Below, piece after piece: positions 18,302 to 61,119 of a DNA stretch of 64,000 nt. The position numbers and the translations under genes are program-made. Source of the stretch: Enterococcus mediterraneensis (GTDB taxonomy: Bacteria > Bacillota > Bacilli > Lactobacillales > Enterococcaceae); the NCBI RefSeq assembly GCF_900604485.1, contig NZ_UWOP01000001.1, forward strand, positions 129,001 to 193,000, read 5' to 3'. The notes below the pieces were generated by a model that saw only the letters and a list, made by a program, of their open reading frames with translations, was not told the origin of the DNA and searched no databases. Position 1 is the first letter of the stretch. Each line of letters opens with the position of its first letter.

Positions 18302-18525
18302 CAAAAAAAGACCCCGTTCCTGATTAAGGAACGAGGTCTCGCGTTACCATCCTATTTTCGTGATAAATCACGCACTTGATTTGCCTAACGGTTGTGGCGA
18401 CCGGTTTGTACACCATGATACAAACTAGCTCGGGAAGTGAACTTCATTTTTCGATACTTGAACCTGCTTTCAGTCTGTGACAGGTCTCCCTTTTCAAGCT
18501 CAGCCAAACTACTCTTTTCCTTCAT
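18302..18525 (-). promoter_or_regulatory. T-box riboswitch (tRNA-Phe) upstream of pheST
   Basis: On the minus strand the leader holds the T-box AGGATGGTAACGCG (from 18352 down), whose TGGT can pair with the ACCA end of uncharged tRNA. Directly after it lies a terminator (GACCTCGTTCCTTAATCAGG hairpin then seven Ts). Stem I lies 5', with an AGTA...GGGAGA element and a candidate specifier loop holding TTC (ATGAAGTTCACTTCC, near 18444), matching phenylalanine. It ends about 50 bases before pheS. Confidence 0.92.
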
Positions 18526-18577
18526 CGCTATTTCGAATATTTGAATGTATTAAGTGTACAAAAAATTTTATATAAAA

Positions 18578-57720: not shown

Positions 57721-58559
57721 TGTAGCGATTCCAAAAAGTTAGTCTTTTATGGAGTGGAGAAATTCACTCCTTTTTCATATACTAAAAATTATGTTTTTAA
57801 CCAATCGCTGCTACTGTTTTACGAAATTGGACTGGACTTTGCCATTTCAATATTTATTTTGTCTCTCCATTATTTTAGTAATAGACATAGCTGTCGATTG
57901 CTGATTTCGGTTCCTCGAAACTGTTATAAGTTTCCCATGAAAAATCTTTTGCCTTAATAAACCGAAAAAATTCTCCATAAGAAAATTATGTGAACAGCTT
58001 CCTCTCCTAGGCTTGCTTTGAAAGACTTTGTATTCCTTAAATTTATTCCCATACGCTTTCATTTGATACGCTCAACATTGATACGATCAGATTGCTTTAG
58101 TTGTAAATTGTTTCTTATTTTTGATTTCATTTTTCTTAGACAAGATAGGTGGACGTCCCTTCGTTTTTGAGAGTCCATCGATACCACTGCACGGAATTGA
58201 TGCATCCAACTAGCAATCAAAGCAGAGTTGTTCATGTTAAATATGTTGGCAACTTCCCGATAGGACAGGTCACTTTTTTGAAATAACTCTTTCGCATCAA
58301 GCTTAAATTGAACAAAATGTTTTTGATTTTGTTGCATTCTTAATAGATTCTCTTCACCAAATTCTCAATAGGTATTGATCCAGCGTTCAACTTGTGATGA
58401 ATTCTTAACGAAATACTTATTTGCCAGATAACGGATTCCGCCTTTACCATCCAAATAAACATGAATGATCTTTAACTTAAGTTCAAAAGTATATTTAGCC
58501 ATAAAAATACCGACCTCCAAAAATTAGATTTTTTAGTCTAACTTTTTGGGGTCGATACA
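57721..58559 (-). mobile_element. Decayed IS3-family (IS150-like) element
   Basis: Both ends carry related inverted repeats: left TGTAGCGATTCCAAAAAGTT and, inverted, right TGTATCGACCCCAAAAAGTT. On the minus strand orfA begins ATG 58502 (MAKYTFELKLKII, helix-turn-helix, GIRYLANKYFV) but hits TGA after 45 codons; the same frame goes on (EFGEENLLRMQQNQK) to 58059. The orfB part keeps only the C-terminal catalytic block (SHNFLMENFFGLL) and the SPVQFRKT end. Most of orfB is deleted, and the element is about 840 bases against roughly 1.4 kb for the family. It is inactive. No target duplication was recognised. Confidence 0.85.
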
Positions 58560-58698
58560 GTTAAGAATAGTTGAATTACTTACGCTTTTATTAAAATGTT
58601 CAGTTAATAATTTCCATTGTTTTTCAAACGATTCATCATAGTGGAGACACATGGACAATACAATGACAAACAGCAAAGATAAAACAAACCAAGCCATT
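58534..58698 (-). pseudogene. 5' fragment of a gene cut by the IS element
   Basis: A minus-strand frame starts ATG 58698 (MAWFVLSLLFVIVLSM, one hydrophobic segment) and continues CLHYDESFEKQWKLLTEHFNK until it enters the IS terminal repeat, where it stops within eight codons. It looks like a short membrane-anchored protein truncated by insertion. No good ribosome site is seen, so the call is tentative. The rest of this gap to 58800 is AT-rich with a small dyad (AAAAGTTATTTAT, about 58725-58755). Confidence 0.3.
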
Positions 58699-58803
58699 GA
58701 TTAAAAGTCACAGGAAAAGGCAGCTAAAAGTTATTTATGCGATAAATGACTTTTTCAACTGTCCAGATACTGGTATAATTTTTTACATATTGTCACCTCA
58801 ATA

Positions 58804-58840
58804 AAAAGACATCTAACTAACTGACAATTAGATGTCTTCA
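58804..58840 (-). terminator. Terminator of the AAA+ operon
   Basis: AAGACATCTAA pairs with TTAGATGTCTT around an 11-nt loop; on the minus strand TTTTTATT follows. It lies directly after the ATPase stop codon. Confidence 0.87.
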
Positions 58841-58844
58841 AAAT

Positions 58845-59960
58845 TTACTTTTTTTCTATAATATCCAACAATAAGCTATCAACTATACAGTCCTCCATAT
58901 ATTTTCTAATAGTTCTCATATTAGAAAGTGAATTTAATTTATTATTCACCTTGTCGAATATAGCGCTTTTATCAAGCTTATTTAGGTATTCCTTTTTCAT
59001 CTTATTACTAGCAGTAATCTCAGAATATACTTTTTCACAAATATCCCTCTTTTCATCCAAAGTAAAATCTACAAACTTAATAAATCCATCAAAACGACTC
59101 AATAGTGCTCTATCAATATTTTTCTCCATCTCATCAATTGATAATAAATTTGAAGTACAGATAATTATTGAATTGCTGACATCAACTTCAAAGTTTTGAT
59201 CAACATATTTTCCTTCATCAAACATTTGATAAAAAGTTGTGTGGAAAAAACTTGGAGCCAAAAGAAATTCATCTAATAATATTAAATTTGATGATCGGTT
59301 TAACAATTTTTTTGAAAATGAATCTTCGCTATGTGATGTTGCTTTATAATATTTCACACTAGATTCACCTCCAAGCATTGTCATCTGCTCTCTAATAATA
59401 TTATCATTCCCATACAATGTTTTGGAAAGATACTTTGCAGTTTCCGTTTTTCCAATGCCGGGATTTCCATAAAACATTAGAACTAACGGTTTAGATGAAG
59501 GTCTAATTAACTGAGCTAAAAGCTTTCTACAAATAGATTTTTTTGCATCTCTTTGTCCTATGATTGATTTATCAAAGTTTTTAAAAATAGATTGTATATT
59601 TTTCTCAGTTATTTTCTTATATCTGTGTTTCACTACTGGAATTTTTTCTGGATAAGTTTTAATTTTATTATAAAAAAACATTGGAGGATTTAAAATTAAA
59701 ACTTGGTCAATTTCAGAAAGCTCAAACACTTTGACTAATAAATCGAAATTTTCTAAGACATGAGAATTAGTACTGGAACAATCTTCAGTTTTAATAACAC
59801 ATGTTTTGTTGTTATTCAATAAATTAATTATGTCACTCAATTGTCTATCTGAGGTCCAATTCCTTAACATCTCACTAAATTGAATCACATCATCAAGCGC
59901 TTCTAATCGCTTATTAAATTTTTTTATGGGCTCAAAGAACACTTTAAATTTCACAGTCAT
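58845..59960 (-). CDS. Single-domain AAA+ ATPase (ClpA/B D2-like), accessory
   Basis: This 371-residue protein has an unrecognised N-terminal region (about 1-130) and one AAA+ module (about 131-371): IIGQRDAKKSI, Walker A GNPGIGKT (165-172), Walker B LILLDE (226-231), sensor 1 CTSN (268-271), arginine finger around RALLSRF and a sensor 2-like NMRTIRK. This order matches the C-terminal module of Clp/HSP100 ATPases, but no protease loop or partner is visible. The start is ATG 59960, two bases after the upstream stop codon. Codons are AT-rich compared with the core. Function is unknown; see findings. Confidence 0.78.
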   Translation of the reverse strand: MTVKFKVFFEPIKKFNKRLEALDDVIQFSEMLRNWTSDRQLSDIINLLNNNKTCVIKTEDCSSTNSHVLENFDLLVKVFELSEIDQVLILNPPMFFYNKIKTYPEKIPVVKHRYKKITEKNIQSIFKNFDKSIIGQRDAKKSICRKLLAQLIRPSSKPLVLMFYGNPGIGKTETAKYLSKTLYGNDNIIREQMTMLGGESSVKYYKATSHSEDSFSKKLLNRSSNLILLDEFLLAPSFFHTTFYQMFDEGKYVDQNFEVDVSNSIIICTSNLLSIDEMEKNIDRALLSRFDGFIKFVDFTLDEKRDICEKVYSEITASNKMKKEYLNKLDKSAIFDKVNNKLNSLSNMRTIRKYMEDCIVDSLLLDIIEKK

Positions 59961-59962
59961 TA

Positions 59963-60739
59963 TCAAACACCTGCCATAAGTATATCAATTATCGGAAGCC
60001 GTAAATTTAACTTTTCCTGTCTCTGTTCTTCATCAAAATCTTCACTTTTCATATTGCTGGACTTTTCTTGAATGATATTATCCATCATATGTCCAAATTC
60101 CAAATTAGCATCGTTTGCTGTACCAACCTGTATTCCAAATAGATGTAAATCCATTTTGGTTAAGTCTTGCAGGGTATAGTTATTCCTAAGTCCAGAGATG
60201 TTAAATCTAGTTATCATTTTTTTACCTTCTTGATCTTCACAAATAAATTCATAATAACCAGACAATAAATCCAAGGTGCGTTCCATTTCTTGAATCTTTA
60301 ATCCGTCAAAATTAGCTTTTTCCTCAGCACTTAGAGTCGATAATTTACTGATATCATCAATCATATTTAATACTGGAACTAAATTTCTATAATATGCTGG
60401 TGAGTCCTTATAAATGAAAAGATTCACATTTGTTAAAGATATTATGTTTGTATTATTTGAGTCAATAACTTTTTTAAAACTACTAATGATTGTGCTAGTA
60501 ATTCGAGTTTCAACGAGATTGTTCTTTTTGTGTGCAGCATTCCCTGACAATCTAATTTTTGCAAAATCGAAAAATCCTTTACCGACAGATGCTTCCGCTT
60601 CAATTGCTGCGACAGACTCAGAAACTTTTTTAATTACTTTGGATTCATCTCCGTCATTATTTAACTCTAAAAAGTCCATTATTGCTTGTTCATCAAGATA
60701 AATAACTTTACCAAATAATAATTCCTCTTTATTCACCAT
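59963..60739 (-). CDS. Partner protein of the AAA+ ATPase, unrecognised
   Basis: This 258-residue soluble protein is first in the operon, starting at ATG 60739 with GGAGGAGC upstream; another ATG at 60757 lies before that site. It begins with KVIYLDEQAIMDFLEL, resembling the start of DUF6414-type proteins, has a glycine-containing middle (VGKGFFDFAKIRLSGNAAH), a beta-rich centre and a C-terminal acidic tail (MKSEDFDEEQRQEK). No catalytic motif is evident. It is translationally adjacent to the AAA+ ATPase, so the two probably form a complex. Confidence 0.6.
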   Translation of the reverse strand: MVNKEELLFGKVIYLDEQAIMDFLELNNDGDESKVIKKVSESVAAIEAEASVGKGFFDFAKIRLSGNAAHKKNNLVETRITSTIISSFKKVIDSNNTNIISLTNVNLFIYKDSPAYYRNLVPVLNMIDDISKLSTLSAEEKANFDGLKIQEMERTLDLLSGYYEFICEDQEGKKMITRFNISGLRNNYTLQDLTKMDLHLFGIQVGTANDANLEFGHMMDNIIQEKSSNMKSEDFDEEQRQEKLNLRLPIIDILMAGV

Positions 60740-60834
60740 TAAAGCTCCTCCAAACATACGTTCTCAATTTATTATATCATAAATTACTATTAACTAATAT
60801 ATCCAAAAACACCTTAACTAGTAACTAAATAAGC

Positions 60835-61119
60835 TACTTTACTCTCTAAATTTCTTTCATATGCTTCATAATCACTATAGGTTTGCATGTGGATAGTTAT
60901 ATCTCCCAGAGCACCAATTTCTTGAACTAAATAATAAGCAACATGCTTCATAATATCGTAATCCGGATAACAAATAATATCATCCATATGTTCGATTATC
61001 TCTTAAAAGGAATTAAAGAAGACATGTTGAATTTCAGTTACGACTTCTCAAATCGATGTTCCTTCTAATGCTTGTGTGAGTTCAGACAACCGATTGATTT
61101 CCTCAAAATGGTCAATCAT
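60835..61119 (-). pseudogene. ardA: ardA antirestriction gene remnant
   Basis: A minus-strand frame of 94 codons contains two internal stops (codons 24 and 39) and no N-terminus. The second half, HMDDIICYPDYDIMKHVA then EIGALGDI...TYSDYEAYERNL, follows the ArdA pattern of Tn916 ORF18 (GALGEV...NYIDYQAYGRDL). ArdA mimics DNA and blocks type I restriction during conjugation. The copy is clearly dead. It shows that a Tn916-like conjugative element once lay here. The match is recalled, not computed. Confidence 0.65.

Follow-up and report, generated by a model that had tools for sequence, protein, structure and literature searches.

Gene organization of the island

Two genes, designated dolA and dolB according to the family assignment given below, lie on one strand of the window (the whole 64,000-nucleotide stretch of DNA that was analyzed), with dolA first and a spacing of 2 nt between them. 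The features of the locus are as follows.

57721-58559, no strand assigned: IS remnant with 25-nt inverted ends (57721-57745/58535-58559, 84% complementary)
58640-58785 (146 bp), minus strand: piece of tcpE, broken 5' end, 89% identical to tcpE of a Tn916-type element at another site of the same genome (G000:C1:1968344-1968491)
58790-58850, minus strand: predicted terminator hairpin behind dolB (RNA fold of -17.1 kcal/mol, z = -3.7)
58845-59960, minus strand: dolB, open frame, 371 aa from ATG
59963-60739, minus strand: dolA, open frame, 258 aa from ATG
60742-60760, minus strand: putative dolA ribosome-binding site GGAGG, identified by eye
60793-61116, minus strand: 3' part of a dead ardA gene with three in-frame stops (one TGA and two TAA)

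The initial annotation had described positions 58845 to 60739 as an intact two-gene operon with its own ribosome site and terminator, AT rich unlike its surroundings and flanked by a dead IS on one side and a dead ardA gene on the other, and its coordinates and description proved correct. Both frames are open; that of dolB was entered in the ORF list from a TTG start, two codons before the ATG. The hairpin comprises 15 pairs followed by a T tract, and none of 200 shuffled sequences was equally stable; it was absent from the list returned by a simple terminator scan. Promoter-like matches at the locus numbered 12, compared with a mean of 16.3 in shuffled sequences, and since they were no commoner than in the shuffles, no dolAB promoter is claimed. 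The GC content was 28 to 30% at 59 to 61 kb versus 44 to 46% at 55 to 57 kb and 62 to 63 kb, the higher-GC flanks corresponding to ABC transporter and lepA genes.

Read in the direction of transcription, the order of the island is dead ardA, dolA, dolB, the broken 5' end of tcpE, and the IS remnant. The ardA remnant was 41% identical over 103 residues to the intact ArdA of survey genome G126 (E = 5e-25) and scored 37.2 bits with the Pfam ArdA model, above the cut-off. The tcpE piece, located between the IS remnant and dolB, had been missed in the initial annotation; we take tcpE to be the orf17-type gene of Tn916-family elements. Pieces of the IS remnant were found again in the same genome and in the genus, and its ORF matched HTH_28 only weakly, under the cut-off. 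From 54 kb to the end of the window, the genes recognized were two ABC transporter genes on one side and lepA plus a deoxyribosyltransferase gene on the other, and no integrase, relaxase or transfer genes were recognized in that interval. Elsewhere in the window, a T-box leader was detected at 18324-18534 on the minus strand (Rfam RF00230, 96.1 bits).

Assignment to the Dodola family

Both proteins matched PADLOC components of Dodola, a known anti-phage family reportedly first described by Millman in 2022. With hmmscan, DolB covered profile positions 3 to 374 of 375 (E = 8.4e-111), and DolA covered positions 5 to 257 of 258 (E = 1.8e-61) with residues 15 to 264 of the 264-aa ORF. The pair had been proposed as a candidate for an undescribed module, a claim that has to be withdrawn because both Dodola components were matched. 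Similarly, the likeness of DolA to DUF6414, earlier regarded as only a resemblance, is a real Pfam match (PF19952, E = 2e-13, 51.1 bits against a cut-off of 25). In NCBIfam, DolB gave Clp-type and other AAA+ matches, all far under their cut-offs, and DolA matched nothing.

The nucleotide-binding motifs noticed originally were confirmed by conservation. Thus, G170-K171-T172 (Walker A), D230-E231 (Walker B), N271 (sensor 1), R289 and R349 of DolB were invariant in 50 aligned sequences, the window's included, a set that comprises the arginine finger and sensor 2 residues; the functional roles of these residues are presumed from AAA+ family knowledge. The copy in the window is a complete, ordinary member of Dodola: both proteins match end to end, the genes are adjacent in the order dolA-dolB, and the ATPase motifs are present. 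It differs in sitting in a decayed Tn916-type element, and no difference in architecture was found. Its DolB was 63% identical to that of G126 and 43 to 58% identical to the nearest aligned named copies.

Two other kinds of system show partial likeness. IetAS, which combines an AAA+ ATPase with a subtilisin-like protease, is also a two-gene AAA+ system, and an IetA encoded between ardA and tcpE in G007 matched the DolB model weakly (E = 4e-11); however, DolA matched DUF6414 alone and no protease family. For their part, ClpC and ClpB (Hsp100) share with DolB the AAA+ core and motifs of their second ATPase domain, whereas DolB has a single ATPase domain, an N-terminal region of its own and no ClpP tripeptide. 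Among solved structures, a 51-sequence profile of DolA gave a best E value of 0.057, which is not credible, and the single sequence gave no match up to E = 1. A literature search for DUF6414 found no paper.

Linkage and distribution of the pair

Named genomes, when scanned with a DolB alignment, yielded at least 239 confirmed relatives, the best 80 of which were used as loci. With the single DolB sequence as the query, no relatives were detected, probably because its patterns are not conserved. Homologues scattered without partner linkage would have spoken against a two-gene module, but a DolA ORF lay directly upstream of DolB on the same strand in 77 of these best 80 loci, with a spacing of -74 to +24 nt in 76 of the 80; in L121, there is an overlap of 188 nt between DolA and the longest DolB ORF. 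No upstream DolA was seen in L078, whose DolB lies at a contig end, or in L090 and L099. Although the DolB loci themselves served to iterate the DolA profile, 50 of 51 aligned DolA sequences matched DUF6414 independently.

Counting the window's own genome each time, the DolA profile matched 1 of 10 genomes in the genus (the window's genome itself), 4 of 105 in the family and 14 of 395 in the order. A DolB-like ORF stood beside DolA in 12 of the 14, own genome included; in three of these (G075, G158 and G239) the DolA match was weak, and in two one gene was broken. G127 and G244 held DolA fragments only. A helix-turn-helix gene and a zeta-type toxin kinase-like gene, recognized by eye, were seen next to dolA in G155, and the same gene pair was seen beside the dolA fragment of G127 (L010:2283-3595 and L017:148-1481). 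Among the matches listed, the nearest named copies came from Streptococcus suis, S. orisratti, S. devriesei, S. hohhotensis, S. mitis and Priestia flexa. This combination of rarity, scattered occurrence and linkage is what a mobile defense system would be expected to show.

Published activity of Dodola

According to PMC12322248, Dodola protected against all streptococcal phages tested, one of three vectors carrying the system conferred no resistance, and chromosomal insertion caused a growth delay. PMC11514479 describes dolA and dolB and cites activity against phage SPP1 in Bacillus subtilis, and in the assays reported there Dodola and other standalone systems had minimal impact on the phages tested. 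That text ascribes a ClpB domain first to DolB and later a Clp-like match and a hexamer to DolA; the two labels seem to have been swapped, since the PADLOC DolB is the AAA+ protein. The mechanism is given as unknown in Table 1 of PMC12322248 and in PMC12926258. Anti-phage activity is on record for these other copies and predicted for the one in the window; the ineffective vector and the minimal impact count against the prediction.

Origin of the island

Dead ardA and the tcpE piece flank dolAB on one strand, in the order found in Tn916-family integrative and conjugative elements (ICEs). The order and orientation of ardA, cargo and tcpE are the same; at the locus, by contrast, this segment alone was recognized, with ardA and tcpE both broken. 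In G126, the genes ardA, dolA (frameshifted), dolB and tcpE follow one another in this order, and the alignment of its DNA with that of the window is continuous from tcpE across dolB and into dolA (68% over 2,078 bp). In Priestia flexa (L045), ardA, dolA and dolB are followed by tcpE-like DNA. Because of this unbroken homology and shared order, the comparison of sequences suggests that dolAB most likely came in with a Tn916-type element. Other arrangements were also observed: dolAB lies on the opposite side of ardA in G388 and G157, and the pair of G324 (L151) occupies a mobile region of a different type, in which integrase and FtsK-like genes were recognized by eye. No clean empty site was found in genus relatives, where the best DNA matches to the lepA and ABC transporter genes were not neighbors (about 430 kb apart in G007).

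From the family match, the order of the parts and the open frames, we infer that the pair is very probably a complete Dodola system that entered as cargo of a Tn916-family ICE, between ardA and tcpE, the ICE having decayed since. The original suggestion of a defense module within a decayed mobile island is thus supported, the family being a known anti-phage one and the island a Tn916-type relic.

A cargo slot between ardA and tcpE

The interval between ardA and tcpE was surveyed in the 395 genomes of the order, using 83 ardA matches to E = 1.5e-28 plus the window remnant and 76 tcpE matches to E = 2.5e-31; anything weaker did not enter the count. Among the matches listed, these strong matches formed 75 Tn916-type ardA-tcpE pairs in 65 genomes, and 9 of the 84 ardA genes, the window remnant included, had no tcpE partner. 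The gap was bimodal over the 75 pairs: 47 were empty (43 to 137 nt) and 28, spread over 23 genomes, were occupied (641 to 4,374 nt), with none in between.

In 13 of the 28 occupied slots, the cargo either is a PADLOC entry or resembles one (E < 1e-20), nine by scan and four by ORF sizes and starts equal to those of a scanned copy. The scanned cargoes were Lamassu LmuAB (G005), Hachiman HamAB (G025), IetAS (G007), a CBASS-type cyclase with a TIR protein (G280, contig C20), an AbiJ-like protein with PDC-S32 (G047, contig C39), an AbiJ fragment (G029), PDC-S39 (G223), a Ppl-like protein in the window's own genome, and Dodola (G126); the Ppl, AbiJ and PDC-S39 matches among them were partial. Those assigned by ORF size and start were Lamassu (G049), Hachiman (G047, contig C23, and G057) and AbiJ (G010). 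The Ppl-like protein, an SMC-type ATPase of 894 aa (L122:10589-13273; G000:C1, about 1965.6 to 1968.3 kb), occupies the slot of a second Tn916-type element of this genome, many of whose transfer genes are open.

The other 15 occupied slots gave no such match, which counts against reading the gap as a defense slot. They held an AbiU2 HEPN protein (G195), an nSTAND protein (G076), DUF4365 (G074), DUF6037 (G005), an ISL3 transposase (G001), and small or unmatched ORFs. A lone protein of 341 to 350 aa was present in G030, G290, G361 and G084 (L131:525-1550, L132:791-1816, L136:772-1797 and L148:784-1836); the L131 copy had no PADLOC or Pfam match and the L148 copy no PADLOC match, and it is a possible candidate for a novel defense protein. 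Two further slot proteins, L128:523-1938 (471 aa) and L144:764-2197 (477 aa), gave no PADLOC match, the former no Pfam match either. The scans covered 28 slot proteins against PADLOC, 20 of them also against Pfam; two L151 proteins scanned alongside lie outside the slot. Look-alike copies by size and start (L127, L132, L134, L135, L136 and L145) were left out of the scan, as were further slot ORFs, among them one each of L139, L142, L129 and L130 and three of L143. By eye, two of the L143 slot ORFs resemble an IS21 pair.

Since the slot elsewhere is empty or holds other defense genes, dolAB appears as one interchangeable cargo, and the label "defense slot" is well suggested. We consider it likely that Tn916-family elements have a dedicated slot for interchangeable defense cargo between the anti-restriction gene ardA and tcpE, so that counter-defense and defense travel together, and that such a slot can persist as a domesticated immune locus once the element itself has gone, the window being an example. 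A description of this slot was not found in titles and abstract openings of papers on Tn916 and ICE cargo, or in passages of PMC12288475, PMC4202715, PMC12479173, PMC11541004 and PMC13064858, which does not prove it to be unpublished. Anti-phage cargo on a conjugative element has already been published for ICEBs1 (PMC8880864, as far as the text seen goes), which shares such cargo and is a different element.

Selection, decay and alternative readings

The initial annotation took the open frames amid decayed surroundings as a sign of selection. The ardA remnant has 3 stops in 104 codons, and at this density about 18 stops would be expected in the 629 codons of dolAB, or 3.7 at the lower 95% bound, for which the probability of finding none is 0.02. 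The comparison assumes that dolAB arrived with the element, a shared arrival supported by the continuous homology with G126. For its part, the substitution pattern (pN/pS of 0.35 to 0.50) is a mere hint, given that synonymous differences to relatives are near or past saturation (pS of 0.66 to 0.79). The stop density thus favors the earlier suggestion, and the saturation leaves selection on dolAB plausible only.

The same data bear on the reading of dolAB as a passenger heading for decay, in which a young copy or a recent death of the element would be the sole reason for the open frames. Saturation blurs any host-specific estimate of selection, the DolA match is confined to one of the ten genus genomes, and copies with one broken gene occur: the two closest copies of the genome survey each have one gene disrupted (dolA of G126, dolB of G324), and in the S. 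mitis copy (L048) dolB is split over two frames, so that the open frames here could be recent luck. Set against the absence of stops where about 18 were expected, this reading is unlikely, though by no means negligible. Alternatively, dolAB might serve the conjugative element itself, in maintenance or in exclusion of rival elements, with a secondary anti-phage effect. The pair does lie among conjugation genes, beside ardA, and another copy is in the mobile region of L151 (by eye). However, other Tn916-type elements carry unrelated catalogued defense genes or nothing in the same slot, which argues against a fixed maintenance function, and Dodola is mostly found away from ardA, an ArdA ORF being seen in the DNA of 5 of 80 named DolB loci (the best 80 of at least 239; loci vary in length). 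We therefore regard service to the element as improbable. A host chaperone or protein-quality module with no part in defense would agree with the resemblance of the DolB ATPase domain to ClpC and ClpB, but the single ATPase domain, the lack of the ClpP-docking tripeptide in the window DolB, the rarity of the pair (14 of 395 order genomes with a DolA match) and its location in mobile DNA make this barely credible.

Proposed mode of action

DolB resembles ClpC and ClpB across the ATPase domain, and its predicted structure is confident (mean pLDDT of 92.9), whereas that of DolA is moderate (76.5, below 50 at residues 49 to 72 and 230 to 235). Y204 of DolB, in a stretch that aligns immediately ahead of the ClpC pore-loop region, was Y in 48 of the 50 aligned sequences and F in 2. 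The ClpP-docking tripeptide, whose pattern we take to be [LIV]G[FL], was absent from the window DolB, and the pattern occurred anywhere in 2 of the 50 aligned sequences; DolB therefore probably does not feed ClpP.

On the basis of these motifs and the model, we tentatively propose for Dodola a Clp-like ATPase that may remodel DolA or a phage protein. DolB would form a ring, as does the second ATPase domain of ClpB and ClpC, and would use ATP to pull on a protein, either its DUF6414 partner DolA or a phage protein. DolA, whose gene almost always adjoins dolB and which could thus be a dedicated partner, would detect infection or be held in check or released by DolB, and the outcome would be a stop to phage growth. 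The growth delay that PMC12322248 reports for integrated Dodola fits a component able to harm the cell. The C-terminal end of DolA is conserved (DVxLAGV-like), and its use as a free tail fed into DolB was also considered; the model places a confident beta strand there, and the idea was rejected for now.

Implications

The assignment to Dodola removes one candidate from the undescribed systems. The cargo slot is more interesting than the dolAB pair: it marks a fixed position, in conjugative elements of a widespread family, at which defense systems can be sought, also among cargo unmatched in the libraries used here.
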